A DNA stretch of 64,000 bases, taken from assembly GCF_000230975.2 (NCBI RefSeq), contig NC_021172.1, positions 1,674,001-1,738,000 on the forward strand, in the 5' to 3' direction. This document shows positions 7,960 through 64,000 of the stretch, piece after piece. The translations under genes were made by a program, and so were the position numbers. The notes beneath the pieces were generated by a model, which worked only from the letters and a program-made list of their open reading frames with translations, made no database searches and was not told where the DNA came from. Numbering within the stretch: the stretch's first letter is position 1; every line of letters starts with the position of its first letter. Source of the stretch: Hyphomicrobium denitrificans 1NES1 (lineage in GTDB: Bacteria > Pseudomonadota > Alphaproteobacteria > Rhizobiales > Hyphomicrobiaceae).

Positions 7960-7965
7960 CTGGTT

Positions 7966-46977: not shown

Positions 46978-46990
46978 TCGAGGCTTGCCA

Positions 46991-47293: not shown

Positions 47294-47322
47294 AGAAGCT
47301 GGGATGAAACGGAGCTGATGTC

Positions 47323-49133: not shown

Positions 49134-49661
49134 TTACTCCGCAAGCGGCTGTACGTCGCTCGCGTCGAGCTTCGAGAGCATCTGGTCGATCGACACACCG
49201 CCAATCGTCAAATTCGGCGCAACGTCCTTGAGCGGCACGAGGACGAACGCTCGCTCAGCGATGCGCGGGTGAGGCACGACGAGATCTGGCTCATCGATTT
49301 TCCGATCGCGAAACGTCAGGATATCGATGTCGATGTTGCGCGGGCCCCACCGCCGCGTGCGAACGCGCGCCATACCGTTTTCAACAGCCTGGCAGCGGGC
49401 CAGCAGCTCTCGTACCGGCACATCGGTTTTGACAGCAATGCAGACGTTGACGAACCAATCCTGGTCCGTCACGCCCCATGGCGCCGTTCGATAGAATCGC
49501 GAGTGCGCGACAAGCCTGACCGCGCCGTCGGCCGTCAGCCGTTCGATCGCTTCCTCGATATTGCGGACCCTATCGCCGATGTTCGAGCCGAGTCCCAGCG
49601 TTGCATCGAATGCGGAACTGCACTGACGTTCGGCCGTCGGAATGGAGCCGGCTCGCGACAT
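49134..49661 (-). CDS. folK: 2-amino-4-hydroxy-6-hydroxymethyldihydropteridine diphosphokinase
   Basis: A 175-residue pyrophosphokinase. It shows LGLGSNIGDRVRNIEEAI, the RFYRTAPWGVTDQDWFVN pterin-binding loop, RRWGPRNIDIDILTF with the catalytic aspartates, and VPHPRIAERAFVLVPL. It makes the pyrophosphorylated pterin used by folate and, here, by H4MPT synthesis. It follows the dehydratase gene by 12 bases on the same strand. Its place at the edge of the H4MPT cluster suggests it supplies that pathway, perhaps in addition to folate. Confidence 0.94.
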   Translation of the reverse strand: MSRAGSIPTAERQCSSAFDATLGLGSNIGDRVRNIEEAIERLTADGAVRLVAHSRFYRTAPWGVTDQDWFVNVCIAVKTDVPVRELLARCQAVENGMARVRTRRWGPRNIDIDILTFRDRKIDEPDLVVPHPRIAERAFVLVPLKDVAPNLTIGGVSIDQMLSKLDASDVQPLAE

Positions 49662-49673
49662 GACGCCGACGAC

Positions 49674-50051
49674 TCAATCGTACTTTATATATGCGAACCG
49701 CTGATCGCCGTGCGGCGTGCCTTCTAGCCCCTTGCCCTCCTTGCCCGGTTGCCAATGCACCACGTCCTCGATCTTCTTCGCTAGTTCGAGGTCTTTCGCC
49801 GTGATCCCTTTCGCCGTATGCGTCATCAGACGCACCTCGACCCAGGCATAGGAGGCCGTGATGTCGGGATGATGCCACGCGGCTTCGGCAAGATGTCCGA
49901 CGGTGTTGATAACCATCAGCGTTCCCTTCCAGCTTGCCGTCTTGTAGGTGCGCCTAATCCAGCCGTCCTCAAGCTTCCATGCCGGTAGATTGGCCTGCAG
50001 CCAAGCCTTAACATCGGCTTCGGACATGGGCTTTTCACGTTCTGCACTCAT
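49674..50051 (-). CDS. Pterin-4a-carbinolamine dehydratase-like protein
   Basis: A protein of about 125 residues (start ATG at 50051; an upstream ATG at 50069 adds six). It carries EAAWHHPDITASYAWVEVRL and the tail LMTHTAKGITAKDLELAKKI, the PCD/DCoH fold with the paired-histidine active site. Classical PCD dehydrates 4a-hydroxytetrahydrobiopterin. Methylotrophs keep a PCD-like gene in their H4MPT clusters, where it was linked with H4MPT synthesis. The precise reaction in this pathway is unproved. It is in one operon with folK. Confidence 0.88.
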   Translation of the reverse strand: MSAEREKPMSEADVKAWLQANLPAWKLEDGWIRRTYKTASWKGTLMVINTVGHLAEAAWHHPDITASYAWVEVRLMTHTAKGITAKDLELAKKIEDVVHWQPGKEGKGLEGTPHGDQRFAYIKYD

Positions 50052-50166
50052 CTTGCCCTTATCCTTCATTTGTTAGACAACTCGGCTCGGAGCCTAGCGC
50101 TCCTTCCCCCGCCAACGCAAACGCGACGCGGCAGCTTGGACACCCCCAGGAAAGGAATTCCGCTTC

Positions 50167-51135
50167 GTGAGTCTTTCACCCGCGCCTTCGGCAACGATCC
50201 GCGTCAGGGCGCCGGCTCGGCTGCACCTCGGCTTTCTCGACCTGAACGGTGCCATCGGCCGACGTTTCGGCAGCATTGGGCTCGCGGTGGATCAACCCGA
50301 GACCGAGCTGACGTTAACGCACGCAACACGTCACGAAGCGGGCGGATTCGAAAGTGCGCGAGCACTTGCACTGGTGAAAAAATTCGCGGGAACAACGCCG
50401 GGCGGCGGCTATGCCGTCGATGTCCGGCAAGCCATTCCTGCGCACGCCGGGCTGGGTTCGGGAACACAACTCGCACTTGCAATCGGCGCCGCAATCGCCC
50501 GAATGGAAGGCCGCACGCTTTCGCCGAGCGATCTCGCCGCCCTCGGCGAACGCGGCGCGAGATCCGGTATCGGCCTCTCGGCGTTCGCCTCAGGCGGCTT
50601 CATTGTCGACGGCGGCAAAGGCGCCGACGACCGGCCTCCGCCCCTGACAGTCCGCTGCGATTTTCCGGATGACTGGCGGATCATGCTGATCCTCGAGGAG
50701 AGCGGCGCCGGCGTCTCGGGCGAAGCTGAGGCGACGGCCTTTGCGAACCTGCCGGAGTTTCCGCGAAGCTCAGCGGCGCACATCTGCCACCTCGTATTGA
50801 TGAAGCTTATTCCCGGATTGAAAGAAACCGACCTCGACGCGTTTGGCTCGGCACTTACTGAAATTCAGCAGATCGTAGGCGGCTATTTTGCCAGCAAACA
50901 AGGGGGCAGCGTCTGGACGAGTCCCGCCGTCGGACGCCTCGCGCATCGCATGCGCGACCTGGGAGCGCAGGGCATCGGACAGAGTTCCTGGGGGCCGACG
51001 GGTTTCGCTTTCGTGGACACCCCGGATGCAGCACAACGCCTCTATGATTCTTTAGTCGAAGAGGCTAAAGGCGACGGTCTCAGCATTCTCGTTGCGCGAG
51101 GCCGCAATACCGGCGCCAGCGTCGAAGCCATTTAA
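50167..51135 (+). CDS. Beta-ribofuranosylaminobenzene 5'-phosphate synthase
   Basis: A 322-residue GHMP-fold protein that joins p-aminobenzoate (or hydroxybenzoate) to phosphoribosyl pyrophosphate with loss of CO2, the first committed step of methanopterin synthesis. It shows RVRAPARLHLGFLDLNGAIG, the GHMP loop AIPAHAGLGSGTQLALAIGAA, and GGSVWTSPAVGRL. The GTG at 50167 follows AGGAAAGGA. It diverges from the PCD/folK pair and leads the mtdB-mch operon. It corresponds to MptG/orf4 of methylotrophs. Confidence 0.93.
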   Translation: MSLSPAPSATIRVRAPARLHLGFLDLNGAIGRRFGSIGLAVDQPETELTLTHATRHEAGGFESARALALVKKFAGTTPGGGYAVDVRQAIPAHAGLGSGTQLALAIGAAIARMEGRTLSPSDLAALGERGARSGIGLSAFASGGFIVDGGKGADDRPPPLTVRCDFPDDWRIMLILEESGAGVSGEAEATAFANLPEFPRSSAAHICHLVLMKLIPGLKETDLDAFGSALTEIQQIVGGYFASKQGGSVWTSPAVGRLAHRMRDLGAQGIGQSSWGPTGFAFVDTPDAAQRLYDSLVEEAKGDGLSILVARGRNTGASVEAI

Positions 51136-51162
51136 AGCCAAAAAACGGAGCTTGATAAGTCC

Positions 51163-52065
51163 ATGAGCGAGGCAACCCCAATTCTGCACATGCTCGCGCC
51201 GCAGAAGCACATGAGCCCCTTCGACGTGAACATGGCCGCCGATGCCGGCTACAAGGTTATCGTGCCCTACATCAACGTCGAGCTGAACGAGGTCGCCGGA
51301 CTTATCCAGGACGCTATCTTCTCGCGTCCCCCGAACTACGGCGTACGTACGGGTTTCTTCATGGGCGGCAAGGACGCGATCCTCGCGCTCGACATGCTGG
51401 ACGCCGCGAAGAAGGCGATGGTCCCGCCATTCGAGTGCTCGGTCTTCGCAGACCCGGCGGGCTCCTTTACCACGGCTGCCGCGATGGTCGCCTGCGTCGA
51501 AAAGATTCTCAAAGAAAAGTTCGGACGCTCCTGGAAAGGCGTGAAGGTTGCGGTCTTCGGCGCAACCGGCGTCGTCGGATTTGCATCTTCGATCATCGCA
51601 GCCCTTGAGGGCGCCGACGTCCAGCTCGTCGCCCACCGCGGCGTCGAACGCGTCATCAAGAATGCCAAGATTTCGAAGGAGCGCTTCGGCGTTGATCTCG
51701 AAGCCGTCGCCGGCGAGACGCCGGAGCAGAAGCAAGACATCATCGCCAACGCGGAAGTGATCTTCGCAGCGGCCGCAGCCGGCGTGCAGGTCGTCTCGGC
51801 CGAGCACAAGAAGCTCGCCAAGAACCTGAAGGTCATCGCCGACGTCAACGCCGTGCCGCCTCCGGGAGTCGAAGGCATGGAGCTGTTCATGAACGGCGAA
51901 CCGATTCCAGGCTGCGATGCGCTCGGCGTCGGCCCGCTTGCAATCGGTGACATCAAGTACAAGTGCGAGTCCGGTCTCTTCAAGCAGATGATCGATTCCG
52001 ACAAGCCGCTGTCGCTCGACTTCCGCCACGCTTATGCGCTGGCGAAGCAGCTCGTCGGCATCTAA
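51163..52065 (+). CDS. mtdB: NAD(P)-dependent methylene-tetrahydromethanopterin dehydrogenase
   Basis: A 300-residue enzyme that oxidises methylene-H4MPT to methenyl-H4MPT. It shows LHMLAPQKHMSPFDVNMAAD at the start, the Rossmann loop VAVFGATGVVGFASSII, and ADVNAVPPPGVEG. These features match MtdB and not MtdA. It follows the RFAP synthase by 27 bases and is followed by an ATP-grasp gene within four bases. It is a central step of formaldehyde oxidation in methylotrophs. Confidence 0.95.
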   Translation: MSEATPILHMLAPQKHMSPFDVNMAADAGYKVIVPYINVELNEVAGLIQDAIFSRPPNYGVRTGFFMGGKDAILALDMLDAAKKAMVPPFECSVFADPAGSFTTAAAMVACVEKILKEKFGRSWKGVKVAVFGATGVVGFASSIIAALEGADVQLVAHRGVERVIKNAKISKERFGVDLEAVAGETPEQKQDIIANAEVIFAAAAAGVQVVSAEHKKLAKNLKVIADVNAVPPPGVEGMELFMNGEPIPGCDALGVGPLAIGDIKYKCESGLFKQMIDSDKPLSLDFRHAYALAKQLVGI

Positions 52066-52069
52066 GAAT

Positions 52070-53200
52070 GTGGCTGGCGAAGCGGTCCTGATCGCTGCGT
52101 TCTCCGGGCGGGCTCTCGCGCAGTCCGCCCGTCGCGCGGGCTATGAGCCGCTCGTCGCCGACGCCTTCGGCGATCTCGATACGCAAGAAGCCGCTGCTGC
52201 CATCCGCATCATTGACGGCGCCATGGCGACGGGGTTTCGGACAAAGCCGCTCATCGCTGCGCTCGATGCTCTGGCATCTTCTTCCAGCACACCGCCCATC
52301 GGGCTCGTTCTCGGATCGGGCTTCGAGGACAAGCCGCGCCTTATCGCGGCACTCGGCCGTCGCTATCGGCTGCTTGGCAACGATGCCGCGACATTCAAAG
52401 CTTGCAAGGACCCATCAGGCTTCTTCGCTAAACTCGACGAACTCGGCATTGCGCATCCCATGACGCAATCTTTCCCTCCCGCAAATCCCGATGGCTGGCT
52501 GACAAAGCGCACCGGCGGCAGCGGCGGCCGCCACATCCGCATCTGCGACGCAGCAGTAACCGAACGACGCCGCCGCTATTTTCAGAAGCAGCTTTCGGGC
52601 GACCGGCTGTCTGTCGGCGGCGTCTTCGGCTCGGAACGAGCGCATCTCGCGTTGACGCGCCAGTGGATTACGCCCTCGCCCGAGCAGCCCTTCCGTTTCG
52701 GCGGCGCGGTATCGATGCCTGACGTTGCTCCCGAGCTTCGCCGCAAACTGGAGAGCGCGGCGCTCAGCGTTGCATCGGCTTTCGGTATCGTCGGCATGGC
52801 GTCCTTCGATTTCGTCGTGTCCGACAGAACTCCGCACCTGCTCGAAGTCAATCCCCGCCCCGGCGCATCGCTCGACGTCCTCGACGATGATGTAGGATTA
52901 CTGTTCCGTGCCCATCTCGCGGCATGCCTCGGCAAAGCTCAATCGACCGATCGGCCCGAGCCGTCCCAAACGGCCTGCGCCATGGCCATCCTGCACGCCG
53001 ACCGCGGGTCATTGATACTTGGGACGACACCCTGGCCCTCATGGAGCGCCGATCGCGGCCCGGCCGGCACGCTTATCCCAAAAGGCGCCCCGCTCGCCAG
53101 CGTCTTCGCGGAGGCCGCGACGGCGGATGCGGCAGAAGCCCTCGCCCGGGCGCGCTTGGCTGAACTCGAAGACCTGATATACGAACACACGCAATCCTGA
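52070..53200 (+). CDS. ATP-grasp carboligase-like protein of the H4MPT cluster (orf5-like)
   Basis: A protein of about 376 residues of the ATP-grasp superfamily that joins a carboxylate to an amine at the cost of ATP. It shows an N-terminal Rossmann-like domain, GFEDKPRLIAALGRRY, the ATP-binding TKRTGGSGGRHIRI, and MASFDFVVSDRTPHLLEVNPRPGAS, the metal-binding Glu-x-Asn pair of the family. Its GTG at 52070 lies four bases after the mtdB stop; an out-of-frame ATG at 52068 is not used. Orf5 homologues always travel with mtdB/mch in methylotrophs, and a glutamate-ligase role in H4MPT or methylofuran synthesis is likely but unproved. Confidence 0.85.
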   Translation: MAGEAVLIAAFSGRALAQSARRAGYEPLVADAFGDLDTQEAAAAIRIIDGAMATGFRTKPLIAALDALASSSSTPPIGLVLGSGFEDKPRLIAALGRRYRLLGNDAATFKACKDPSGFFAKLDELGIAHPMTQSFPPANPDGWLTKRTGGSGGRHIRICDAAVTERRRRYFQKQLSGDRLSVGGVFGSERAHLALTRQWITPSPEQPFRFGGAVSMPDVAPELRRKLESAALSVASAFGIVGMASFDFVVSDRTPHLLEVNPRPGASLDVLDDDVGLLFRAHLAACLGKAQSTDRPEPSQTACAMAILHADRGSLILGTTPWPSWSADRGPAGTLIPKGAPLASVFAEAATADAAEALARARLAELEDLIYEHTQS

Positions 53201-53223
53201 CGCCCACCGGAGTTTTTTCCCCG

Positions 53224-54189
53224 ATGCACAGTGCCAAACAACCGAGCGTTTCCGCACGCGCCGCCAAGCTCGTCGACGCGATGGTCGCAGACGCCGATGC
53301 GCTCCGCATCGCAGTTTCCACTGGCAGCCACGGCGAACGCATCATCGATTTGGGCGCTAACGTCGTCGGCGGGCTGGAAGCCGGACGGCGTCTCGGCGAA
53401 ATCTGCATGGGCGGCCTCGGCACAGTCGCCTTTACGCAATCCTCGGGCCTGGCGAATTGGCCGCTCGGCGTCGTCGTCAGCTCCAATCACCCGGTGATCG
53501 CGTGCCTCGCGAGCCAGTACGCCGGTTGGACCATCTCGGACGAGGCGTCGGGCTTCTTCGCACTCGGCTCCGGCCCGGCGCGCGCCCTGTCGCGGGTCGA
53601 AGATCTGTTCAAGGAACTCGGCTATGTCGACCACTCGCCCGAGACCGCTCTCGTCATCGAAGGCGATAAAGCGCCGCCGCCCGCCGTCATCGAAAAGATC
53701 TCGACCGGCTGCGGCATCAATGCGAGCAAATTGACTGTGCTCTATGCGACGACATGGAGTCTCGCGGGGACCGTGCAGATCGCGGCGCGCGTCCTCGAAG
53801 TTGCGATCCACAAAGCGCACGCCTTGCACTTCCCCCTTGAGAATATCTTGGATGGCACAGGCACAACCCCCATCGCACCGCCCTATCCCGATTTCGTCAA
53901 GGCGATGGGCCGCACGAACGACGCCATCATCTACGGCGGTCGCATTCACCTCTTCGTCAAGGGACCAGATAGCGACGCCAAGCGATTGGCGGAAGGACTG
54001 CCTTCAAACACCGTTTCGGCTTACGGCAAGCCGTTCGCCGAGATTTTCGCCGACGTCAACGGCGACTTCTATAAAATCGACCCAATGCTGTTCTCGCCGG
54101 CTCAAGTCATCGTGTCGAACGTCGAGACCGGCACCTCCTTCCATGCGGGCAAGCTGGCGCCGGAGATCGTCGATGCGAGCTTCCGTTGA
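53224..54189 (+). CDS. mch: Methenyltetrahydromethanopterin cyclohydrolase
   Basis: A 321-residue enzyme that hydrolyses methenyl-H4MPT to formyl-H4MPT. It shows GSHGERIIDLGANVVGGLEAG, VVVSSNHPVIACLASQYAGW, SGFFALGSGPARAL and YGGRIHLFVKG, all diagnostic for Mch. The start is preceded by CGGAG. Its last 17 bases overlap the next ATP-grasp gene (orf7-like). Confidence 0.96.
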   Translation: MHSAKQPSVSARAAKLVDAMVADADALRIAVSTGSHGERIIDLGANVVGGLEAGRRLGEICMGGLGTVAFTQSSGLANWPLGVVVSSNHPVIACLASQYAGWTISDEASGFFALGSGPARALSRVEDLFKELGYVDHSPETALVIEGDKAPPPAVIEKISTGCGINASKLTVLYATTWSLAGTVQIAARVLEVAIHKAHALHFPLENILDGTGTTPIAPPYPDFVKAMGRTNDAIIYGGRIHLFVKGPDSDAKRLAEGLPSNTVSAYGKPFAEIFADVNGDFYKIDPMLFSPAQVIVSNVETGTSFHAGKLAPEIVDASFR

Positions 54190-55156
54190 GGCGCCTGCCA
54201 AGCCCATTTCAACTCAGGGTGCAGGTCTTCATCTTGCGCTTCTGATCGAGGAAGGGCGCGGCGAGTGGCACGCGCGGCGCATCGTCAGATCGCTCGAAGC
54301 GATGGGTGCGCGCGTCACGGTTTCATCTCTTCCTCATTGTGCGTTCGATACGTCGCTCGCTTCGGGCATCGACATTCCGGGCTTCGACGGCGCCTTGCCT
54401 GACGGTGTCTTCGTCCGCTCGATTTCCGCCGGCACGCTTGAGCAGATCACGTTCCGCTTAGGGCTTCTACACGCGTTACGCGAAAGCGGCGTCCGCGTCT
54501 GGAACGACGCCCGTGCCATCGAACGTTGCGTCGACAAATCGCAAACGACTTTTCTGCTGCACAAGAACGGCGTCGCGACGCCGCGGACGCGCGTCTGCGA
54601 AACGCTTCCCCACGCACTCGAATACACCGAGGGTCTCAGTCGTCCGCTGGTCATGAAGCCGCTGTTCGGCAGCCAGGGGAAAGGCATCGGCATGATCTCG
54701 TCGCAGAGCGAGCTGCCGGAGCCCGAGGTCGTCGATCAGATGTATTACATGCAGGATTACATCGCGCCGAAGGACGGCATCTTCGAGGACTGGCGCGTGC
54801 TCGCAACACGCCATCGCGTCGTTGCGGCCATGACTCGTCGCGGCACGAGCTGGGTGACCAACATTCATCAGGGCGGCAAGGCCCGCGCGCATCTTCCCGA
54901 CGATGAGATGGTCGCCGCCTCGATGGCTGCGATGCGCGCCGTCGATGCCGATTACGCCGGTATCGATCTGATCCGTACGCCTGCCGGCGAATTGCAGGTG
55001 CTGGAAGTGAACTCGAACCCCGCCTGGCGCGGACTGCAAAGCGTCGCCGACGTCAATATCGCCTGGACGATCGCCGAAGATTTTCTGAGGACCGTCATCG
55101 CCCACCGCGCGGTGTTAGGACTCGGTGCGCCAGTCGCCCTCGCTGCCGTGTCATGA
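54173..55156 (+). CDS. RimK-like ATP-grasp ligase of the H4MPT cluster (orf7-like)
   Basis: A protein of about 327 residues. It shows the ATP-grasp core PLVMKPLFGSQGKGIGMIS, YYMQDYIAPKDGIFEDWRVL, NIHQGGKARAHLPDDEM, and IDLIRTPAGELQVLEVNSNP with the metal-binding residues. Such enzymes add glutamate or other amino acids to a carboxyl group. Archaeal relatives (MptN-like) add glutamate to tetrahydrosarcinapterin, so a role in adding a glutamyl tail to the methylotroph cofactor or methylofuran is plausible. Its ATG at 54173 lies 17 bases inside mch, so the two are translationally coupled. Confidence 0.87.
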   Translation: MRASVEAPAKPISTQGAGLHLALLIEEGRGEWHARRIVRSLEAMGARVTVSSLPHCAFDTSLASGIDIPGFDGALPDGVFVRSISAGTLEQITFRLGLLHALRESGVRVWNDARAIERCVDKSQTTFLLHKNGVATPRTRVCETLPHALEYTEGLSRPLVMKPLFGSQGKGIGMISSQSELPEPEVVDQMYYMQDYIAPKDGIFEDWRVLATRHRVVAAMTRRGTSWVTNIHQGGKARAHLPDDEMVAASMAAMRAVDADYAGIDLIRTPAGELQVLEVNSNPAWRGLQSVADVNIAWTIAEDFLRTVIAHRAVLGLGAPVALAAVS

Positions 55157-56016
55157 CGGCACCGCTCGCGCCGGACAAAATATCCGCCGCATTTCTTGCA
55201 GCATGCCGTGCCGAGCTCGACGCGCTGAAACCCGGCAATGTGCATCGCCATTCGGCGGGGCACGGGATGCAAGTCGCACATTTCGAGCGCGCTGCAGAAG
55301 CCGCCGCCGGGCCCATTGCCGATCCATCTCTCAGCGTCGGAAAGCGCATCCTGCGTGCAACAGAAGCGAGCGTCGCTGTAACCGGTCTCAATACGAACCT
55401 CGGTATCGTGCTTCTCTGTGCTCCGATCGCCAAAGCCGCGGGCGAAAAAACATCCTTCGACATCGGACTGCGCCGCCGCCTCGACATGATCCTCGCCGCT
55501 CTCGATGAAGAGGATGCTGCCGACACTTTTGCGGCGATCCGCATTGCCAATCCTGCCGGCCTCGGCAAAGTCGAAAAAGGAGACATTCTAGACAAGCCGG
55601 AGCGCATGACATTAATCGCGGCCATGCACCTCGCCGCGGAGCGTGACCGCATAGCCAATGCCTACGTAACCGCCTATTCCGATATCTTCGATTTTGCGCT
55701 GCCCGTGTTCCAGGATGCGCGCATGGTTACGAACGATTCCAATCTCGCCGTCACGACGCTGCATATGTCGCTGCTGGCGGAATTTCTCGACACTCATATC
55801 GTCCGCAAGTACGGCGAGGCCACCGCTATAGAGGTGCGGCAAGAAGCGCGCGCTTTGAAAGCGCAATGGTCTCCTGTTGCATCTGCGAAATCGATCCCAT
55901 CTTTGATCGAATTCGACGCAAAAATGAAATCTAAAGGCCTCAATCCTGGCACGACCGCCGATTTCGTCGTCGCCACCCTCTTCGTCGCAGGGCTAATCGG
56001 CCGGAAACATACGTGA
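55153..56016 (+). CDS. CitG/MdcB-family triphosphoribosyl-dephospho-CoA synthase homologue (orf9-like)
   Basis: A 287-residue protein related to CitG, which joins ATP to dephospho-CoA by releasing adenine. Its core reads AELDALKPGNVHRHSAGHGM, then SVAVTGLNTNLGIVLLCAPIA, and DRIANAYVTAYSDIFDFALPV. No citrate lyase genes are near, and the gene is coupled (ATGA overlap) to orf7-like and upstream of fae. In methylotrophs this family is required for the H4MPT pathway; a triphosphoribosyl or phosphoribosyl transfer in cofactor synthesis is likely, but the substrate is unproved. Confidence 0.87.
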   Translation: MTAPLAPDKISAAFLAACRAELDALKPGNVHRHSAGHGMQVAHFERAAEAAAGPIADPSLSVGKRILRATEASVAVTGLNTNLGIVLLCAPIAKAAGEKTSFDIGLRRRLDMILAALDEEDAADTFAAIRIANPAGLGKVEKGDILDKPERMTLIAAMHLAAERDRIANAYVTAYSDIFDFALPVFQDARMVTNDSNLAVTTLHMSLLAEFLDTHIVRKYGEATAIEVRQEARALKAQWSPVASAKSIPSLIEFDAKMKSKGLNPGTTADFVVATLFVAGLIGRKHT

Positions 56017-57652: not shown

Positions 57653-57711
57653 AGCTTGCCTCCTCGCCGATTGAGTGTATCACGGGGCCGAATGGCGAGG
57701 TGAAGACCGAT

Positions 57712-58722
57712 ATGACAATTGTCGCCGGTTACGATGTCGGTGGCGCGCACTTGAAGGTTGCGCGGATTGAGAACGGGCGGCTCGCCGCAGTGCGTCAGAT
57801 CGCATGTCCGCTATGGCACGGCCTCGATCAACTCGATGCCGCGTTGGCTTCCGCCGCGCCGATTGTCGGCGGCGCCGCAATCCATGCGATCACGATGACC
57901 GCCGAGCTGACCGAGATTTTCGCGAGTCGCGAAGAGGGCGTCGTCGCGCTGCTCGAAAGATTGCGCCAGCGGATCGCCGGCGATCTCAGAATATTCGTCG
58001 GCCTCAAAGGCTTCACGGACGTGCAAGCGGCGCGTGGCGATCCCTTGTCGGTCGCTTCGGCAAACTTTCTTGCGACCGCGCGTCTCGTCGCAGAACGGCA
58101 GCCCCGCGCAGTGCTGATCGATTTCGGCTCGACGACGACCGACATCGTTGCATGCGACCGGCCACAGGGTTTAAGCGACGCCGAACGCCTGCAAACGGGC
58201 GAGCTTGTCTATACCGGGCTGACGCGGACGGCCGTTCCATCTGTCGCTACGCGTGCGCCGCTTGCAGGGCAGTGGCAGGGTTTGGCGCGCGACACCTTCG
58301 CGACAATGGGGGATGTCCGGCGCATTCTCGGCGAACTCCCGGAGGATGTCGATTTCCACGCGACGGCCGATGGGCGGGGCAAGTCCCTATCCGAAAGTCT
58401 TGCACGCTTCGCGCGCGGCTTCGGGCGCGATGCCGATATGCGCCATCTGACGACATGGCAGGCCTCTGCCGCCTATGTCGCGGAACGCCAAATGCGGTCG
58501 ATCCATGACGGCGTGCTGCAGGTCCTATCACGGCCCGGCATCGTGGCCGAGGCCGTTGTCGTCGCCGGCATCGGCGCATCGACCGCAGAGCGAATTGCGT
58601 CACGGATGAATTTGCGCGCGTCCGATTTCGGAACTCTCATCGACGCGCCGGATGAACATCGATTATGGGCGACGCGCTGCGCGCCTGCTGTCTCCGTCGC
58701 GCTGCTGCAAGCGAAGCGATAG
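57712..58722 (+). CDS. Hydantoinase/oxoprolinase-like H4MPT-linked C1 transfer protein (orf17/MfnF-like)
   Basis: A protein of about 336 residues of the actin-like ATPase (ASKHA) fold family TIGR03123. It shows VAGYDVGGAHLKVARIENG, the first phosphate loop, LIDFGSTTTDIVACD, the second, and VVVAGIGASTAERIA, the adenosine loop. The family is found only in organisms with H4MPT or methylofuran. Archaeal homologues are, as I recall, assigned as MfnF, coupling the furan and tyramine parts of methanofuran. The ATG at 57712 follows GAGGTG; a GTG at 57700 is an alternative. It diverges from the HisA-like gene by 59 bases. Confidence 0.87.
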   Translation: MTIVAGYDVGGAHLKVARIENGRLAAVRQIACPLWHGLDQLDAALASAAPIVGGAAIHAITMTAELTEIFASREEGVVALLERLRQRIAGDLRIFVGLKGFTDVQAARGDPLSVASANFLATARLVAERQPRAVLIDFGSTTTDIVACDRPQGLSDAERLQTGELVYTGLTRTAVPSVATRAPLAGQWQGLARDTFATMGDVRRILGELPEDVDFHATADGRGKSLSESLARFARGFGRDADMRHLTTWQASAAYVAERQMRSIHDGVLQVLSRPGIVAEAVVVAGIGASTAERIASRMNLRASDFGTLIDAPDEHRLWATRCAPAVSVALLQAKR

Positions 58723-58779
58723 CCTGGAACGAATTCGGCCGCAGCATTGACCCCGCGGCCGGCAGAATTCGTCAGGCTA
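58720..58779. terminator. Long imperfect hairpin filling the convergent gap
   Basis: TAGCCTG (58720-58726) pairs with CAGGCTA (58773-58779), ACGAATTC with GAATTCGT, and GCCGC with GCGGC, broken by small bulges. It starts on the orf17-like stop codon and ends seven bases before the convergent gene stop. No T run follows. It may act as a two-way transcription barrier. Confidence 0.55.
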
Positions 58780-58785
58780 TGTCGA

Positions 58786-59067
58786 TTAGCCCCGCTCGCG
58801 TTCCAGCCGCACGATGTCAAACGTGCCGGCTTCGAGCTTCAGATCATACTGATGGCCGTTCTCGCGGCGTGCATCTTCGATCTTCCAGTAGCCGTGATCC
58901 CATTTGATGTAACGCCAGGAAACAAATCCCATGCGATGCAGGCGGTCGGTGACGACAGCCGGATCGTCCCGCACCTCGTCATGGCCCGCGAGAACCGGCG
59001 CCGACATCGCGAACGCCACGGCGGCGACAGCGAATGCCCGGCGCGCAAAGCGAGAGACTTCAATCAT
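58786..59067 (-). CDS. Small exported PepSY-like protein
   Basis: A 93-residue protein with a signal peptide (ARRAFAVAAVAFAMSAPVLA) and a short domain: VVTDRLHRMGFVSWRYIKWDHGYWKIEDARRENGHQYDLKL is the PepSY-like strand-helix pattern around residues 38-78. PepSY-like domains in exported proteins often inhibit peptidases or bind metals or tetrapyrroles; function here is unknown. It follows the methyltransferase gene by 126 bases on the same strand. Confidence 0.75.
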   Translation of the reverse strand: MIEVSRFARRAFAVAAVAFAMSAPVLAGHDEVRDDPAVVTDRLHRMGFVSWRYIKWDHGYWKIEDARRENGHQYDLKLEAGTFDIVRLERERG

Positions 59068-59193
59068 CGAACTCTACCTTCTTTTGGAAAAGCTAGTCGG
59101 GATGGCATACCGACAACCGCTGCAGTGCAGCATGGTTCCATTGTCATGACGGCAAGTGAAGCGTGAAACAATGGCCCATCGGTACACTTGCAA

Positions 59194-60378
59194 TCATTCG
59201 ACACCCTTAAGTTGCGACGCCAGATGATGCGTCTCAAAGCCCATGGCTCGTTTCAATTCCCGATATTGCCGCTTCGCGCGGTCGGAATTGACGTTCGCTG
59301 ATTTTGTCGCCGCGATAAGAATATTTTTTGCTGTATGCTCGGTCGACACGAATTCGATGACCTTAACCTTATATCCCGACGCTTCGAGCAAAAGCGCGCG
59401 TGCTGCATCTGTAACGAGATCAGCCTGACGCTGCTTGAACAGCGGATATTTGATGACCCCGGCAAAACCCTCGCTCGTATCCTTGATCTGCGGCGCCAGC
59501 TCGTGCTGACAGCAGGGAGCCGCAAGAATCATTTGCGCATCGGCCGCGATGCCGAGCGCCATGGCGTCATCAGTCGCCGTATCGCAGGCATGAAGCGCAA
59601 TGACGATGTCGGTGTGCGTCGTGCGCCTCTGCTGTGCCTCGGCGGCCTCGAAAGCAAGACCTGAGAAATGCAACGCGCGTGCAAGCTCGTTGCAAAGTTT
59701 CACGAGATCGCCACGCACCTCGATTCCGGTCATGACGCACGTTCGCCCGAGCGTTGTCGTCAGATGATCATAAAGTGCAAACGTCAGATAGCCCTTGCCA
59801 GATCCGATATCGAGGATGGACAGCGGCTCGTCTGCGTCGCTCTGATCTATATCTTTCAACAGTCCGTCGAAGATTTCGATGAAGCGACAAATCTGGCGAT
59901 ACTTGCCCTGCATTGTCGGCTTGATACGTCCCTCTGCATCGGAAACCTGCAGCGCTTTGAGATAGGGACGGTCCGGCGGGACGAGATACGATTTGACGCG
60001 ATCATGCGCAGCGGGCTCGGACGCCTTCAATGTCGGCTTGATGGACGTCAGCTGCGGCTCACGCTTCTTGCTGTAGGTCAGCGTCACGTCGCGGTCCGTC
60101 GAGAACAGCGTCGCGCTGAGATAGGTATCGCCGATCCTCAACTTGATATGATTGATGCCGTCGTTGATCGAAAACGTCTTGGTATCGTCCTTGCGTGCAA
60201 GGCGGGTGACGAGCTTCAAATGCGGAACGCCCTTCAAAGCGACGAGTGTCGCGACGGCCTTGCTCGGTTCGCCCTCGCCCCGAAATTTTCCGAGCGTCAG
60301 CTTGATGAAGGTTTTGGCATCGAGCGCCGCTGCGAGCGCCGCTATGAAGGCGGCTTTCTTGTCATCCTTGCGTGTCAT
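59194..60378 (-). CDS. Class I SAM-dependent methyltransferase, Methyltransf_32-like
   Basis: A 394-residue protein. An N-terminal domain of about 170 residues (IKLTLGKFRGEGEPSKAVA, then DTYLSATLFSTDRDVTLTYS) is followed by a Rossmann methyltransferase: SILDIGSGKGYLTFALYDHL is motif I near residue 190, and VIALHACDTATDDAMALGI with ILAAPCCQHELAP follows, typical of the METTL25/Methyltransf_32 type. Its start overlaps the DUF447 stop by four bases (ATGA), so it is translated with the methylofuran gene set. Homologues exist outside C1 organisms, so an RNA or small-molecule target cannot be decided. Confidence 0.82.
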   Translation of the reverse strand: MTRKDDKKAAFIAALAAALDAKTFIKLTLGKFRGEGEPSKAVATLVALKGVPHLKLVTRLARKDDTKTFSINDGINHIKLRIGDTYLSATLFSTDRDVTLTYSKKREPQLTSIKPTLKASEPAAHDRVKSYLVPPDRPYLKALQVSDAEGRIKPTMQGKYRQICRFIEIFDGLLKDIDQSDADEPLSILDIGSGKGYLTFALYDHLTTTLGRTCVMTGIEVRGDLVKLCNELARALHFSGLAFEAAEAQQRRTTHTDIVIALHACDTATDDAMALGIAADAQMILAAPCCQHELAPQIKDTSEGFAGVIKYPLFKQRQADLVTDAARALLLEASGYKVKVIEFVSTEHTAKNILIAATKSANVNSDRAKRQYRELKRAMGFETHHLASQLKGVE

Positions 60379-60962
60379 GGGGCGTCAGCAGACTTATCGA
60401 AACGAGCCTGCCGCCAGGCGTTGATTTTTTCCATCAGCCATCCCCAGGCTTCTTCCTCGCGCGAGCCGGCGGTCTTCGAAATTGCGATTTCGAGATACTT
60501 CAATTCGCTTTCGATTTTTTCAGGCGGCAGCATGTTGAGCCGCGTCGTCAGCACCGCCAACTCGAGCACCGCTGCCTGCGCGCGATTGAACCCCTCCCAA
60601 GGCTTGTGCGTCTGCCGGTGTACGATGGTGCACGCAAAGCGCGGCCGCTGCTCGTCTTCGAAGAACCGCTCGACCTTCATCTCCCAGTGCGAAACGCAAT
60701 CGGCAAGGCGATGACCTTTGACCTTCTTCGTCGCTTCGAGCGGCCAAAGCTTGCGCCCCGTGACGCCGCCCGCAAAAACACGCACGTCGTCGGTATGGCT
60801 CGCCACGGCGAATGGATGAACTCTCAAATTCTCGAGAGTCCGTGACGGCTTGAACGGCGCAATGATCCAGTGCGACCCGTCCTCGATCAGCCCGAGCGGC
60901 GCAATGTAGGGTTCGTCCGAAGCACTCACGGTGGTGACGATGGTCTCGACGATGCGCGGCAT
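60375..60962 (-). CDS. DUF447 family protein of the H4MPT/methylofuran cluster
   Basis: A 195-residue protein with a flavin-reductase-like split barrel: IVETIVTTVSASDEPYIAPLGL and KPSRTLENLRVHPFAVASHTDD are diagnostic, and CTIVHRQTHKPWEGFNRAQ lies in the second half. It occurs only in methanogens and H4MPT-containing bacteria and is predicted to serve cofactor synthesis. A bound flavin is possible because of the fold. Its start overlaps the kinase stop by one base, and its stop overlaps the methyltransferase start by four. Confidence 0.85.
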   Translation of the reverse strand: MPRIVETIVTTVSASDEPYIAPLGLIEDGSHWIIAPFKPSRTLENLRVHPFAVASHTDDVRVFAGGVTGRKLWPLEATKKVKGHRLADCVSHWEMKVERFFEDEQRPRFACTIVHRQTHKPWEGFNRAQAAVLELAVLTTRLNMLPPEKIESELKYLEIAISKTAGSREEEAWGWLMEKINAWRQARFDKSADAP

Positions 60963-61579
60963 CAGCGCTCTCCTTCGCCTTCGAGGACGGCTCGGAGCCG
61001 AGCGTCACCCGAAGGACCGAAAATGGACCATGAAAGCCCGCCCCGCGCAACGATAGACGGCAGGATTGGATCAACGACCCCGCGACGGGCCAAGTCATCG
61101 AGATCGGCACCAGCCTCAATATCTACGGATTTGAGAAGCACGAGGCGCGCATCGAGAAGCTCCGCGAGCCGCGCCGCGAGGCTATCCGACGTCGCCGACC
61201 AGCTGGCAGGAACAGCGGTGTCACCCGAGATCATACGTAATGGTGCCCAGACCGGCACCTTACGGTTTCTTAGCGCATTCGAAATTTCGGCGAGCGATTG
61301 CGCGACTGTGAAACGTTCGCCCTGCTGCGCGACGACCAATTCGGCCATTTGGTGCATCGCAAGCATTGCCAGCCGATGCGCGACGGCGTCGCTGAATCTC
61401 ATCCTGGGTTGCAATGCCCGAATGCTGTCGGCGAAGGGGCCTCCGCCCGGTACGACGACGACAGGGATGCACGCGGTTGCGATCAGCGACAGGGCCAACG
61501 GCAGGCGGCCAGTTTCAGCGAGGCTGCCGCCAACCTTCACGACGAGCGGGAAAACACCCCTCGCCACACTCTCAGCCAC
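60962..61579 (-). CDS. Amino acid kinase-fold protein, MfnE-like
   Basis: A 205-residue protein of the aspartokinase/acetylglutamate kinase fold. It shows PLVVKVGGSLAETGRL, the ATP/phosphate loop, VVVVPGGGPFADSIRALQ, and LLKSVDIEAGADLDDLAR. The archaeal MfnE phosphorylates aminomethyl-furanmethyl phosphate to the diphosphate in methanofuran synthesis, and this protein is of the same type. Its gene overlaps both folB-like (eight bases) and DUF447 (one base). It is shorter than ordinary amino acid kinases, as MfnE is. Confidence 0.83.
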   Translation of the reverse strand: MAESVARGVFPLVVKVGGSLAETGRLPLALSLIATACIPVVVVPGGGPFADSIRALQPRMRFSDAVAHRLAMLAMHQMAELVVAQQGERFTVAQSLAEISNALRNRKVPVWAPLRMISGDTAVPASWSATSDSLAARLAELLDARLVLLKSVDIEAGADLDDLARRGVVDPILPSIVARGGLSWSIFGPSGDARLRAVLEGEGER

Positions 61580-62033
61580 GGCCGAACTCGCGCGCCGCTT
61601 CCCGTGTCGCAGGACGAATAATCTCGACGCCGCGCAGAGGACCGCGTTCCAGCTTTTCGAGCATCACGCGCACGGCGACGATGCGCTTGTCCGAAAGGAC
61701 GTTCGCGGCGATGCGTTCGGCAAACGTCTCGACGAGATTGATATGGCCGCCGCGTGCCAGCTCCACGATGAAGTCGATGATGTCGGCGTAGGACGGAACA
61801 TCCGCCATATCGTCGTCGACAGTGAAAACATCCCGTGCGAGCCGCGCTTCGACCGTGAAACGCACGCGTTGGGTAACGCCCTGCTCCTCTGCATAGACGC
61901 CAACATTGCAATCGACAACGAAGTCACGCACGAAAATGCTGTCGCCGATCTGGCGGGATTTGAGAGTCGCTCTCCTGAGCTTCGCGGATTTGTCGTCGTG
62001 CGCGGGCTTCGTCGTTTTTTTCTTATTGTTCAT
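61572..62033 (-). CDS. Dihydroneopterin aldolase-like protein (FolB fold)
   Basis: A protein of about 153 residues. A lysine-rich tail of about 30 residues at the N-terminus (MNNKKKTTKPAHDDKSAK) precedes a FolB domain: IFVRDFVVDCNVGVYAEEQG, RVRFTVEARLARDVF, DIIDFIVELARGGHINLVETFAERIA and VMLEKLERG. FolB cuts glycolaldehyde from dihydroneopterin to give 6-hydroxymethyldihydropterin, a step shared by folate and H4MPT. Its position between mfnB-like and mfnE-like, overlapping both, suggests a pterin supply tied to the C1 cofactors. It starts at ATG 62033; the open frame runs further upstream only as a shadow of mfnB. Confidence 0.85.
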   Translation of the reverse strand: MNNKKKTTKPAHDDKSAKLRRATLKSRQIGDSIFVRDFVVDCNVGVYAEEQGVTQRVRFTVEARLARDVFTVDDDMADVPSYADIIDFIVELARGGHINLVETFAERIAANVLSDKRIVAVRVMLEKLERGPLRGVEIIRPATREAAREFGRG

Positions 62034-62767
62034 GCCACGGACTTCTCCGGTGCAGGCTCGATGTTCTGTGCGCGGCCGATTTCGAGCCGAATGGCGGCGA
62101 CGCGTGTCGGGTCGAGCTTGCTCGACCGACCCGTCTCGCAAAGCGCACCGCGGAAGCCCAGCACGTCCGGACCGAGGCTCGCAAGGCCCGCGATGTCTTC
62201 CATTCTGAGCGACCCGGCAAGACCGCACATCAGATTGGAATTCCGTGCCGACGACACGAACTTTGAAAGCCCTCCGGCAGGCAGCATCGTGGTCAAGCGA
62301 CCGCCCGACTTGTCCGCCGTATCAAGCATCACGCCGGCAAAACCGTGCGCCGCGAGATATGGAATAAGCTCGTAATCCGGGGCCTGATCCGCCATCAGCA
62401 CCGCAACGAGACGCACCTTCTGATGCTTCACCCGCCCCAGCGCAGCGATCGCGGGACGCGCATCACCGTCGCCGAAAAATCCGATCTTGACGATATCGAC
62501 TCCTGTCCGCGCCATCGCGGATGCAGCCTCGACCAGCGCGCCGGACTCCGGAGGCAAGTCCCCGACCGTCGCGCTCACCAACAGTCGGCCAGCCACGCGC
62601 GCGGCGACCTCGCGGACAACCGCGTGCGGCAGCGCCCCCAGCGCACCGGCCGACGGATCTTTGCAATCGATCACATCGGCGCCGCCTGCGAGTGCCAAAC
62701 TCGCCTCATCGGCGCTCGTCACGCTCGCCAGAAAGGCGGGACGCCGCCGTGTCAAACCGTCGATCAT
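62030..62767 (-). CDS. mfnB: (5-formylfuran-3-yl)methyl phosphate synthase, MfnB-like
   Basis: A protein of about 245 residues of the DUF556 TIM-barrel family. It builds the furan ring of methanofuran from two glyceraldehyde 3-phosphate. Diagnostic segments are FLASVTSADEASLALAGGADVID, CKDPSAGALGALPHAVV with the catalytic lysine region, VDIVKIGFFGDGDARP, and LVAVLMADQAPDYELIPYLA with GVMLDTADKSGG. The presence of mfnB supports methylofuran production by the host. The ATG at 62767 was chosen because the sequence before it is not conserved. It overlaps folB-like by four bases. Confidence 0.88.
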   Translation of the reverse strand: MIDGLTRRRPAFLASVTSADEASLALAGGADVIDCKDPSAGALGALPHAVVREVAARVAGRLLVSATVGDLPPESGALVEAASAMARTGVDIVKIGFFGDGDARPAIAALGRVKHQKVRLVAVLMADQAPDYELIPYLAAHGFAGVMLDTADKSGGRLTTMLPAGGLSKFVSSARNSNLMCGLAGSLRMEDIAGLASLGPDVLGFRGALCETGRSSKLDPTRVAAIRLEIGRAQNIEPAPEKSVA

Positions 62768-62805
62768 TCCATCGTCCGAGATAAATAAGCCGCGGATCCG
62801 CGGGA

Positions 62806-63546
62806 TCAGGTGGCGAAGATGCGGATTTGCTCTTGGAGCACCGCAGCCCGGTCGTGGCGCTGAGCTTCTGTCAGGTTCACGACCGCATCCTGGGCAACAC
62901 TCGCCTGTCCCGGCGCCAGGCGCAAGATGCGGGTCCCGAGTTGTATTGCCTCGGACCGGTCGTGCGTCACGAAAATCACGGTTGTCGGCTGCCGGTGCCA
63001 CAGCTCCATCAACAATTCCCTGAGGCTTGCCGCCGTAGGATCATCAAGCGAAACAAAGGGCTCGTCCATCAACAAGATCTGAGGTTCGAGGATGAACCCC
63101 CGTGCCAGCGCCGCACGCCGCTGCATGCCGAGCGACAACATCTCGGGGTAAGCGTTCTGCGCCTGACCCAGCCCGACGCGCTCCAGCATCGCCGGGATTT
63201 GCGCGTGACGAGGATCTCCGTTCGGGAGAGCGAGGGCGATATTTTCGTAAAGCGTGCGCCAGGGCAGAAGCCGGGGCGTCTGGAAAATGAACGTTACGCC
63301 GTCTTTCGCGGGGCCGAGATCAATCGATCCTTCGTAATCCTTGTCGAGCCCGGCGATGATGTTGAGCAACGTCGACTTTCCGCAGCCCGACGGACCGGTG
63401 ATAACCAGAAACGAGCGCGGCGCCACCTCGAATTCGATATCCTGAAGCACGAGCTGTGCTTCGCGGTCTCCAACCGCCGGAAAGATCTTGCGCTTGACCG
63501 CGACGCGGATCGTCCCGTTTGTGTTTCGTCCGTTCAGCGGCGCCAT
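62806..63546 (-). CDS. ABC transporter ATP-binding protein, taurine/nitrate type
   Basis: A 246-residue ATPase of the SsuB/TauB/NrtD type. Walker A is GPSGCGKSTLLNIIAGL near residue 52, the Q-loop is FIFQTPRLLPWRTLYENIAL, the signature is LSLGMQRRAALARGF (Leu replaces the usual second Gly of LSGGM), Walker B is ILLMDEPFVSLD, and the switch His is in FVTHDRSEAI. It precedes the mfnB operon by 38 bases on the same strand and overlaps the permease gene by 13 bases. The substrate is unknown; taurine, sulfonates or a C1-cofactor precursor are candidates. Confidence 0.9.
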   Translation of the reverse strand: MAPLNGRNTNGTIRVAVKRKIFPAVGDREAQLVLQDIEFEVAPRSFLVITGPSGCGKSTLLNIIAGLDKDYEGSIDLGPAKDGVTFIFQTPRLLPWRTLYENIALALPNGDPRHAQIPAMLERVGLGQAQNAYPEMLSLGMQRRAALARGFILEPQILLMDEPFVSLDDPTAASLRELLMELWHRQPTTVIFVTHDRSEAIQLGTRILRLAPGQASVAQDAVVNLTEAQRHDRAAVLQEQIRIFAT

Positions 63547-64000
63547 GCACTCACCCGGGCTTGCAGCGGCTGCAGCACCGCGAATTCGATGACTTGCACG
63601 ATCAGGATGAAGGCCAGCGCATAGGCCAGTATCGTGCCGACGTCAAATTCCTGGAACGCGATCGCGAGACGATAGCCGACACCGTTCGAGCGGCCGAAAG
63701 CTTCGACGACGAGCACGATCTTCCAGACGAGCGATAGGCCCGACCGGGCTGCAGCGGCAAAGAACGGTGCGAGCTGTGGTAGTGTCACGTGCCGAAGCGT
63801 CTTCCAGTTCCCGAACTTGTACATGATCGCCATCTCGGCAAGATCTTTCGAGAGGCTGCGCGCGCCCTCGCGCATGTTGACGGCGACGTTTGGGATCTTG
63901 TTCAGCGCCACGGCGATGATCGCGGCGGTATCCGTCAGCCCGAACCAGATGTAGCAGAGCGTGATGGTGACGAGCGCCGGCAGGTTCAGGAACAACGTCA
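63534..64000 (-). CDS. ABC transporter permease, C-terminal part, cut by window edge
   Basis: About 155 residues of an inner-membrane permease run to the window end; the start lies outside. It shows the EAA loop MREGARSLSKDLAEMAIMYKF-type segment with NWKTLRHVTLPQLAPFF, followed by transmembrane segments (GLSLVWKIVLVVEAFG and ILAYALAFILIVQVIEFAVL). It is of the SsuC/TauC group and overlaps the ATPase gene by 13 bases. The binding protein is presumably further upstream. Confidence 0.88.
   Translation of the reverse strand, partial: TLFLNLPALVTITLCYIWFGLTDTAAIIAVALNKIPNVAVNMREGARSLSKDLAEMAIMYKFGNWKTLRHVTLPQLAPFFAAAARSGLSLVWKIVLVVEAFGRSNGVGYRLAIAFQEFDVGTILAYALAFILIVQVIEFAVLQPLQARVSAWRR

Follow-up and report, generated by a model that had tools for sequence, protein, structure and literature searches.

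The window analysed here is a 64,000-nucleotide stretch of DNA that ends in an island for C1 oxidation and for the biosynthesis of H4MPT and methylofuran, from a Hyphomicrobium-like methylotroph and belonging to the known "archaeal-like" type of cluster. Gene calls were based on ORFs and on Pfam and NCBIfam profile matches, and positions are those of the window:

49134..49661, minus strand: folK (HPPK); TIGR01498, 140 bits (cut-off 54); HPPK, 137 bits
49674..50069, minus: pterin-4a-carbinolamine dehydratase-like (pcd); PF01329, 93.5 bits
50167..51135, plus: RFAP synthase (mptG/orf4); TIGR00144, 184.7 bits (cut-off 113.5)
51163..52065, plus: mtdB; PF09176 (Mpt_N)
52034..53200 (start may be 52070), plus: ATP-grasp_3 ligase, candidate MyfA/OrfY by inference; PF02655
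53224..54189, plus: mch; TIGR03120, 390 bits
54173..55156, plus: RimK/MptN-like ATP-grasp ligase, MyfB/Orf5; NCBIfam MptN, 175 bits, under its cut-off
55153..56016, plus: CitG-like Orf7; PF01874, 228 bits
56230..56760, plus: fae; TIGR03126, 246 bits
56945..57652, minus: HisA-like Orf17; PF00977; TIGR00734, 105.7 bits, under its cut-off
57700..58722, plus: MfnF-like Orf9; TIGR03123, 285.7 bits (cut-off 244.1)
58747..59166, plus: ORF with no Pfam or NCBIfam family match, rejected as probably not a gene
59194..60378, minus: class I SAM methyltransferase (Methyltransf_32); PF13679; 4 bp overlap with DUF447
60375..60962, minus: DUF447, probably Orf20; PF04289 and PF20766, both over cut-off
60962..61579, minus: MfnE-like kinase (AA_kinase), Orf21; NCBIfam MfnE, 71 bits, under its cut-off
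61572..62033, minus: FolB-like; PF02152, 71.5 bits
62030..62767, minus: MfnB (4-HFC-P synthase), Orf22; PF04476, 233 bits
62806..63546, minus: ABC transporter ATPase (Ssu/Tau-like)
63534..64000, minus, running beyond the window end: ABC transporter permease

These matches confirmed that the island of pterin, C1 and methylofuran genes described in the initial annotation is real. The window holds mch, mtdB, fae and RFAP synthase as well as homologues of MfnB, MfnE and MfnF, the latter two scoring under archaeal equivalog cut-offs. For MyfB (54173), the FolB-like gene (62033) and probably MfnB (62767), the true starts differ from the longest-ORF starts. A single "orf17/MfnF-like" gene had been annotated; an MfnF-like gene indeed exists and corresponds to Orf9, but Orf17 is a different, HisA-like gene (PMC8141765). 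The gene grouping is not a product of chance, because in ∼20 kb stretches around mch from 10 other mch genomes Orf7 and MyfB recurred in 10/10, and RFAP synthase and mtdB in 9/10. A MyfA-candidate-like gene was present in seven of the same stretches and a FolB-like gene in two.

The "archaeal-like" H4MPT/MYFR clusters of Methylorubrum extorquens, M. flagellatus and Methylosinus contain the same genes as the window (PMC8141765, PMC3615186), and the order mch-orf5-orf7-fae-orf17 is shared with M. trichosporium (PMC3615186). Compared with these clusters, the window brings together in a single stretch RFAP synthase, mtdB, the MyfA candidate, mfnF and the mfnB/mfnE block. In 10/10 of the other mch genomes DUF447 is flanked by Orf19; the window lacks Orf19, and the block is bordered by the methyltransferase and the ABC transporter instead. 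The pathway is not complete within the island: a profile search of the organism's own genome placed a formyltransferase gene ∼258 kb away (FTR_C, 202 bits, at C1:1464582), and Orf19 (DHPS-like), AfpA/DmrB and MptE-like genes were not found in the ∼400 kb searched of the 3.8 Mb genome.

Two further claims, that the ATP-grasp ligases make a glutamyl tail and that the MfnB/E/F homologues and the HisA-like gene serve methylofuran synthesis, were supported and are already published for homologues (PMC8141765). MyfA, MyfB and Orf17 are required for methylofuran (Hemmann 2021, PMC8141765); glutamate ligation by MyfA/MyfB was demonstrated for the M. extorquens and M. flagellatus homologues, and the role of Orf17 follows from the deletion of a homologue. 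By analogy, the ligases of the window would build the same tail. The broader proposal that the remaining genes supply the missing steps of methylofuran and dephospho-H4MPT assembly held for the CitG-like gene and DUF447, which co-occurrence and linkage place in the pterin branch, but not for the methyltransferase and the ABC transporter. For the methyltransferase, tblastn at E ≤ 1e-3 gave no match in any of the 10 other mch genomes, whether in their mch stretches or in the 1.5 kb flanks of DUF447, and among the best 120 of 7687 matches to it the named organisms were Hyphomicrobium or unspecified Proteobacteria. Pterin C-methylation, moreover, is not a reaction that class I SAM chemistry suits well. 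The ABC transporter, for which no evidence of belonging to the system was obtained, likewise had no match in the 10 mch stretches or DUF447 flanks, a weak test given that most stretches stop short of mfnB, its neighbour in the window.

What is new here is the tie of the CitG-like gene and DUF447 to the pterin branch, much of the remaining inference being already in print. Among 219 Pseudomonadota genomes, mch was found in 11, and all 11 carried an Orf7-type CitG and DUF447, with a CitG copy within ∼8 kb of mch in each. DUF447 was confined to these genomes (0/208 of the mch-negative ones), so that wide occurrence without H4MPT, the refuting condition set in the initial annotation, was not seen for it in this sample. 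The CitG Pfam family did occur in 11/208 mch-negative genomes, but those copies form a separate clade. Furthermore, four archaeal controls with RFAP synthase (M. jannaschii, H. volcanii, S. acidocaldarius and M. acetivorans) all possessed CitG and DUF447, although a profile search for FTR, which covered the own genome and the controls, gave no match in H. volcanii and S. acidocaldarius. In the controls, the two genes therefore track RFAP synthase and not formyltransferase.

The same association was seen in larger archaeal surveys, in which the phylum names are our own interpretation. In 230 Thermoproteota, a genome was scored for RFAP synthase at E ≤ 1e-20 (89 of the 159 with any match; 75 exceed the curated cut-off) and for DUF447 if the match exceeded that family's cut-off (78 of 84). 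RFAP synthase and CitG occurred together in 82 genomes, RFAP synthase alone in 7, CitG alone in 22 and neither in 119; the corresponding numbers for RFAP synthase and DUF447 were 75, 14, 3 and 138, and Fisher tests on such co-occurrence ignore shared ancestry. Thus, CitG was lacking from 7/89 genomes with RFAP synthase, and 22/104 CitG-bearing genomes had no strong RFAP synthase; 21 of these 22 also lacked DUF447, and one, G440, had mch and Fwd-like genes ≤8 kb from CitG. DUF447 lay ≤600 bp from RFAP synthase in 29 of its 78 genomes and from CitG in 17. Of 196 Halobacteriota (a count of 191 there takes any match, with 181 over cut-off), 2 had CitG but no RFAP synthase and 6 had RFAP synthase but no CitG. 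In 66 of 76 archaeal loci (80 minus 4 with <700 bp downstream), DUF447 was the gene immediately following CitG, and in 7 more the ORF calls overlapped; DUF447 also adjoined CitG in 15/15 high-GC Halobacteriota picked from the 196 on genome size and RFAP synthase score; no DUF447 was found near CitG in five low-GC Thermoproteota stretches. At locus L168, CitG, DUF447, dihydromethanopterin reductase (TIGR02700) and a DHPS-like gene (TIGR00284) were consecutive, as were DUF447, RFAP synthase, a DmrB-like and a DHPS-like gene at L235. Two reports point elsewhere. One describes haloarchaea as folate users and considers HVO_2628 unlikely to be an RFAP synthase (PMC8305020); since the CitG-DUF447 pair seems to be kept in probable haloarchaea, this counts against the pterin-branch reading. 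The other ties DUF58/DUF447 proteins to cannulae in Pyrodictiaceae (PMC13140500). On balance, we consider it very probable that Orf7 and DUF447 are members of the H4MPT branch and not of methylofuran synthesis.

Orf7 shares with CitG/MdcB (PF01874) the fold and 13 family-wide positions in the alignment, including K26, G28, N80, D213, P265, G266 and D270. It differs by five near-fixed switches (N29, P91, K219, A225 and N264, where other CitGs have L, L, R, L and S), and its scores for the CitG (TIGR03125) and MdcB (TIGR03132) equivalogs, 36.0 and 44.6 bits, fall far under the cut-offs of 272.3 and 282.35. N29 and a PG[T/S/A]-AD motif are features of the archaeal CitG subfamily linked to RFAP synthase, the motif form being present in 128 of 140 archaeal rows, while 12 gave no pattern match. 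In a tree that was a quick build, with many rows of odd composition and the archaeal rows thinned from 140 to 68, Orf7 nested in the archaeal CitG clade, apart from the citrate-lyase/malonate-decarboxylase CitGs (support of the separating branch 100) and next to a Hadesarchaea CitG (support 90 only, long stem of 2.32). The only fold match at E ≤ 0.001 was PDB 3h9p, a putative triphosphoribosyl-dephospho-CoA synthase of Archaeoglobus fulgidus whose function is unproven (chain B; TM 0.63 by query and 0.80 by target; 22% identity in the fold alignment). Protein P0121, 100% identical to 230 query residues of 3h9p, carries GNVD and NPGT-AD motifs. For Orf7 as a putative ATP-dependent alpha-ribosyltransferase of H4MPT synthesis, we see about even chances.

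The predicted fold of DUF447 is of the FMN split-barrel type and matched the family members 3b5m, 2nr4 (MM1853) and 2iml (query TM 0.72-0.82) and 2ptf (MTH_863; 0.56). Of these, 2nr4, 2iml and 2ptf are described as FMN-bound; the four structures come from a planctomycete and archaea, and their titles give no function. Since DUF447 lies beside a known dihydromethanopterin reductase, it should perform a different reduction. A role as FMN-dependent reductase of the pterin branch is put forward tentatively, at somewhat less than even chances.

A shared island, in which DUF447 abuts mfnE, could also suggest that Orf7 and DUF447 help to make methylofuran, as the neighbouring MfnB, MfnE, MfnF and Orf17 do. 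That pathway still has gaps for a transaminase, for a tyrosine ligase and for a branching enzyme (PMC8141765). A methylofuran role is improbable in view of H. volcanii and S. acidocaldarius, which carry both genes without an FTR match, and of the archaeal neighbours, which are RFAP synthase, dihydromethanopterin reductase and a DHPS-like gene. Even less probable is that Orf7 is a true triphosphoribosyl-dephospho-CoA synthase for citrate lyase or malonate decarboxylase, as the common family and the conserved core residues might imply. Besides the low scores, separate clade and switched residues of Orf7, the eight CitGs tested from the other clade all score over the cut-off for CitG or for MdcB; CitF or malonate decarboxylase alpha was found in 6/10 scanned neighbours of such CitGs, and genomes G028, G143 and G151 hold a second, other-type copy elsewhere.

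Equally remote is passive linkage, that is, joint inheritance after transfer from archaea without a common pathway. The position of Orf7 beside the Hadesarchaea CitG and the 38% identity between the Hadesarchaea and window RFAP synthases would fit it, but DUF447-CitG and DUF447-RFAP synthase adjacency is repeated in distant archaea. More serious, though still unlikely, is that both proteins act in the pterin branch in other jobs: CitG on a pterin or aryl-riboside ahead of the alpha-ribose step, for example, and DUF447 as a second dihydropterin reductase or as flavin donor to DmrA/AfpA. Both genes occur in Sulfolobus and haloarchaea, whose finished carrier may lack alpha-ribose, and the FMN-protein fold of DUF447 and its place next to dihydromethanopterin reductase would suit such roles. 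Against them, the final reduction is already supplied by DmrA and DmrX/AfpA (PMC6193120), and no alternative alpha-ribosylation candidate appeared among the annotated genes near the loci, where a minority of neighbours is annotated.

Taken as a whole, the explanation of the H4MPT/methylofuran island in which Orf7 and DUF447 carry out the pterin-branch steps set out below stands, in our estimate, at an even balance; co-occurrence, linkage, kinship and predicted fold are observed, whereas the two reactions, the order in which they run and the donor are inferred. RFAP synthase would make 4-(ribofuranosyl)aminobenzene 5'-phosphate, to which a DHPS-like enzyme would join the pterin. DUF447 with FMN would reduce the benzylic riboside to the 1-deoxyribitol, and Orf7 would next apply CitG chemistry to a ribitol hydroxyl, with ribose taken from ATP and adenine released. 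The product would be an alpha-linked ribose carrying a 5-(tri)phosphate, which bacteria would hydrolyse to yield dephospho-H4MPT. Against ATP as donor, White's work is said to identify PRPP as the source of the second ribose. The carriers of H. volcanii and Sulfolobus may lack alpha-ribose, which speaks against alpha-ribosylation by Orf7.

A more far-reaching and doubtful reading is that citrate-lyase prosthetic-group chemistry was recruited for methanopterin, with ribose passing from ATP to the aryl-ribitol. In archaea, the alpha-ribose 5-triphosphate would then be the activated group, and a CitX-like step would use it to form the phosphodiester with 2-hydroxyglutarate, releasing PPi. In methylotrophic bacteria the triphosphate would simply be hydrolysed, which would explain dephospho-H4MPT, and haloarchaea, described as folate users, would still make an RFAP-derived C1 carrier.

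Methanopterin is the one-carbon carrier of methanogens, anaerobic methane oxidisers and most methylotrophs. For its synthesis, a 2011 survey of Methanothermobacter genes counted three proteins as known and put those still unknown at an estimated seven (PMC3087415), and no published source for a CitG role was found in the literature searched, which omits most subscription journals. If named steps could be assigned to the CitG-like and DUF447 families, two of these gaps would become directly testable with small proteins, and both families have solved archaeal structures (3h9p; 2nr4, 2iml and 2ptf). The assignment could also correct the name 'triphosphoribosyl-dephospho-CoA synthase' borne by such proteins of archaea and methylotrophs.

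ORF and family searches confirmed that the genes listed in the initial annotation are present in the 15-kb island. The plus-strand genes are RFAP synthase, mtdB, a candidate for MyfA, mch, MyfB, Orf7, fae and MfnF. On the minus strand mfnB, the folB-like gene, mfnE, DUF447 and a methyltransferase gene abut or overlap, so that they look, from their arrangement, like one transcript. Positions of some of these genes and of their surroundings are:

55153-56016, plus strand: CitG-like gene, Orf7
60375-60962, minus strand: DUF447 gene, probably Orf20
59194-60378, minus strand: class I SAM methyltransferase gene, overlapping DUF447 by 4 bp
45224-48483: pqqB, pqqC, pqqD and pqqE, directly upstream of the island, followed by a cytochrome c-like frame (read by eye)
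40799-44363, minus strand: sulfite/nitrite reductase haemoprotein-type gene adjoining a flavodoxin/FAD reductase-type gene
L064 (stretch beyond the window end) 1535-8281: the rest of an ABC transporter permease of sulfonate/taurine type, with an ORF of solute-binding-like character (no NCBIfam match); further on, a beta-propeller protein of the PQQ-dependent catabolism-associated kind, together with an alcohol ABC permease of PedC type

Among the best 120 matches listed, most of the named close relatives of the CitG-like protein belonged to Hyphomicrobium. Gene names were mapped via the available text of two papers, which gives the gene orders mch-orf5-orf7-fae-fae-orf17 and orf19-orf20-afpA-orf21-orf22 (PMC3615186) and equates Orf22 with MfnB, Orf21 with MfnE, Orf9 with MfnF, Orf5 with MyfB and OrfY with MyfA, Orf17 being HisA-like (PMC8141765). 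Since DUF447 is placed beside Orf19, we infer that the window gene is Orf20. The DHPS-like Orf19 (DUF6513 in the two examples scanned) adjoins DUF447 in 10/10 other mch genomes, in the flanking place that the methyltransferase gene holds here; it does not do so in the window's genome, roughly 400 kb of which yielded no hit for it. As a whole, the island is an unremarkable example of an already known type of cluster.

Phylogenetic profiles were determined in 219 evenly drawn Pseudomonadota genomes. Eleven of these carried mch, and DUF447 was found in the same 11 and in none of the others. RFAP synthase was found in the 11 mch genomes and in three more, one of them below the cut-off; G015 and G174 (loci L083 and L084), two of the Pseudomonadota with no match to mch, CitG or DUF447, encode RFAP-synthase-family proteins over the TIGR00144 cut-off. 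The CitG family (PF01874) was present in 22 genomes. All 11 mch genomes had a copy near mch, 8.1 kb off in G167 and nearer in the rest, and a further 15 copies were split between the remaining 11 genomes and G028, G143 and G151, where they were second copies. In the control archaea M. jannaschii, H. volcanii, S. acidocaldarius and M. acetivorans, RFAP synthase and DUF447 were matched in all four, as was CitG, which also matched in E. coli; mch was found in three of the four, and formyltransferase only in M. jannaschii and M. acetivorans. In these controls CitG and DUF447 thus track RFAP synthase, not formyltransferase. Among 196 Halobacteriota, 191 had RFAP synthase and 187 CitG (3 had neither, 2 had CitG without RFAP synthase and 6 had RFAP synthase without CitG). 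For 230 Thermoproteota, RFAP synthase and CitG occurred together in 82, the former only in 7, the latter only in 22 and neither in 119; the corresponding numbers for RFAP synthase and DUF447 were 75, 14, 3 and 138. Since the extreme Fisher p values ignore shared ancestry, gene order was weighed as well.

Named genomes were scanned with aligned Orf7-type proteins from archaea and bacteria, and 80 archaeal loci were kept; as the best 80 of 504 confirmed, they form a biased set rich in Archaeoglobi and Methanosarcinia. An RFAP synthase match was present in 30 of the 32 genomes of named archaeal CitG loci (28 over the cut-off). Of these best 80 loci, 76 had room after CitG, and in 66 of them a same-strand DUF447 began between -60 and +400 bp relative to where CitG ends; in seven more the DUF447 ORF call starts further upstream, and L115, L164 and L166 had no DUF447 next to CitG. 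A DmrB-type flavoprotein query matched in 21/80 of these best loci (E <= 1e-4), just past DUF447 wherever coordinates were compared. The Hadesarchaea locus L168 shows the order CitG, DUF447, dihydromethanopterin reductase (TIGR02700) and a DHPS-like gene (TIGR00284), the last two matching above the cut-offs of their models; RFAP synthase follows after some 1.2 kb on the opposite strand. In Thermoproteota, no more than 600 bp separated DUF447 from RFAP synthase in 29 genomes and from CitG in 17, together 46 of 78. On a single strand, locus L235 lines up DUF447, RFAP synthase, a Flavoprotein/Fer4 protein and then a DHPS-like frame; L236 has RFAP synthase and DUF447 next to an MptE-like gene and to another DHPS-like frame.

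To assess the kinship of Orf7, 94 proteins were placed in a quickly built maximum-likelihood tree, rooted on the branch splitting off the other bacterial CitGs. The 11 Orf7s formed one group within the archaeal CitGs, beside Hadesarchaea (support 90), and the 15 other bacterial copies fell on the opposite side of the branch (SH-aLRT 100). The citrate-lyase or malonate-decarboxylase character of this other clade was checked on part of it: 8/8 scanned copies were over a CitG or MdcB cut-off, and the 10 neighbours scanned comprised one CitF, five malonate decarboxylase alpha subunits, two acyl transferases and two transporter-type proteins. Thirteen positions were conserved across all three CitG groups, and five switched between Orf7 type and others (N29/L, P91/L, K219/R, A225/L and N264/S), each at least 87% conserved within its group. 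This shared core with changed specificity positions fits CitG chemistry on a different acceptor. The AlphaFold model of Orf7 (pLDDT 92.5) had 3h9p, a putative triphosphoribosyl-dephospho-CoA synthase of Archaeoglobus fulgidus, as its only fold match at E <= 0.001.

CitG consumes ATP, releases adenine and places an alpha-linked 5-triphosphoribosyl group on a ribose hydroxyl of dephospho-CoA; CitX then converts the triphosphate to a phosphodiester, releasing PPi. H4MPT carries an alpha-ribofuranose on its ribitol; the archaeal form also has a phosphodiester that links the ribofuranose 5-phosphate to 2-hydroxyglutarate. Given this chemistry and structure, Orf7 fits ribosyl transfer in H4MPT synthesis, a step that it would catalyse with ATP as the putative donor. 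Older extract work reportedly named PRPP as the ribose donor. The bacterial dephospho form is described as having neither the phosphate nor the hydroxyglutarate (PMC8141765).

The DUF447 model (pLDDT 96.4) matched the Rhodopirellula structure 3b5m and three structures with bound FMN, 2nr4, 2iml and 2ptf. H4MPT synthesis involves two reductions: one opens the riboside to give ribitol, the other turns dihydro- into tetrahydromethanopterin. According to the available text of PMC6193120, the latter is performed by DmrA or DmrX/AfpA/DmrB, and a Hyphomicrobium nitrativorans DmrA homologue reduces a dihydromethanopterin analogue. Because DUF447 stands beside dihydromethanopterin reductase in archaeal loci, it is proposed to catalyse the riboside-opening step instead, a tentative assignment to which we give somewhat less than even weight.

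Several observations speak against these assignments. The 22 CitG-bearing Thermoproteota without strong RFAP synthase lacked DUF447 in 21 cases, and CitGs from such genomes (L200, L201, L207, L208, L212 and L227) were intermixed in the tree with copies from RFAP-synthase genomes. Loci L231-L234 (G581, G593, G498 and G440) are Thermoproteota examples of an Orf7-type CitG without strong RFAP synthase or DUF447; in G440, mch and Fwd-like genes lie near CitG. These genomes possibly have a divergent RFAP synthase or are incomplete. No DUF447 was found near CitG in five low-GC Thermoproteota stretches, each genome having DUF447 elsewhere; in four low-GC Thermoproteota (L270-L273) a weakly DmrB-similar frame is placed some 1 kb away from CitG, and DUF447 is missing from the vicinity. 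CitG and DUF447 were adjacent in 15/15 chosen high-GC Halobacteriota (L255-L269; GC of the stretches 0.62-0.70), each with an RFAP synthase match, and these are probably haloarchaea. Haloarchaea have been argued to use folate, HVO_2628 being considered probably not an RFAP synthase (PMC8305020, available text). Either this view needs revision, or CitG, DUF447 and RFAP-synthase-type genes reach wider than H4MPT. For DUF58/DUF447 proteins of one archaeal family, a role in cannulae has been offered (PMC13140500, available text).

The initial annotation had proposed that the island supplies the missing steps of methylofuran and dephospho-H4MPT assembly, including a glutamyl tail made by ATP-grasp ligases. 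A good part of this is already published: for homologous genes, the central idea is in print through the mutant and in vitro data of Hemmann 2021 (PMC8141765). As far as the available text goes, methylofuran was undetectable in M. extorquens orf5 and orf17 deletions and in an M. flagellatus orfY mutant, the mutants in orfY and orf5 accumulated short intermediates, in vitro polyglutamate was formed by Orf5, and the orf17 mutant still had detectable methenyl-dH4MPT. The same text leaves open what Orf17 does and which enzymes act as transaminase, tyrosine ligase and branching enzyme, and no discussion of Orf7 or DUF447 was found in it. The useful new point is Orf7 and DUF447 as a conserved pterin-branch pair with specific, testable proposed reactions.
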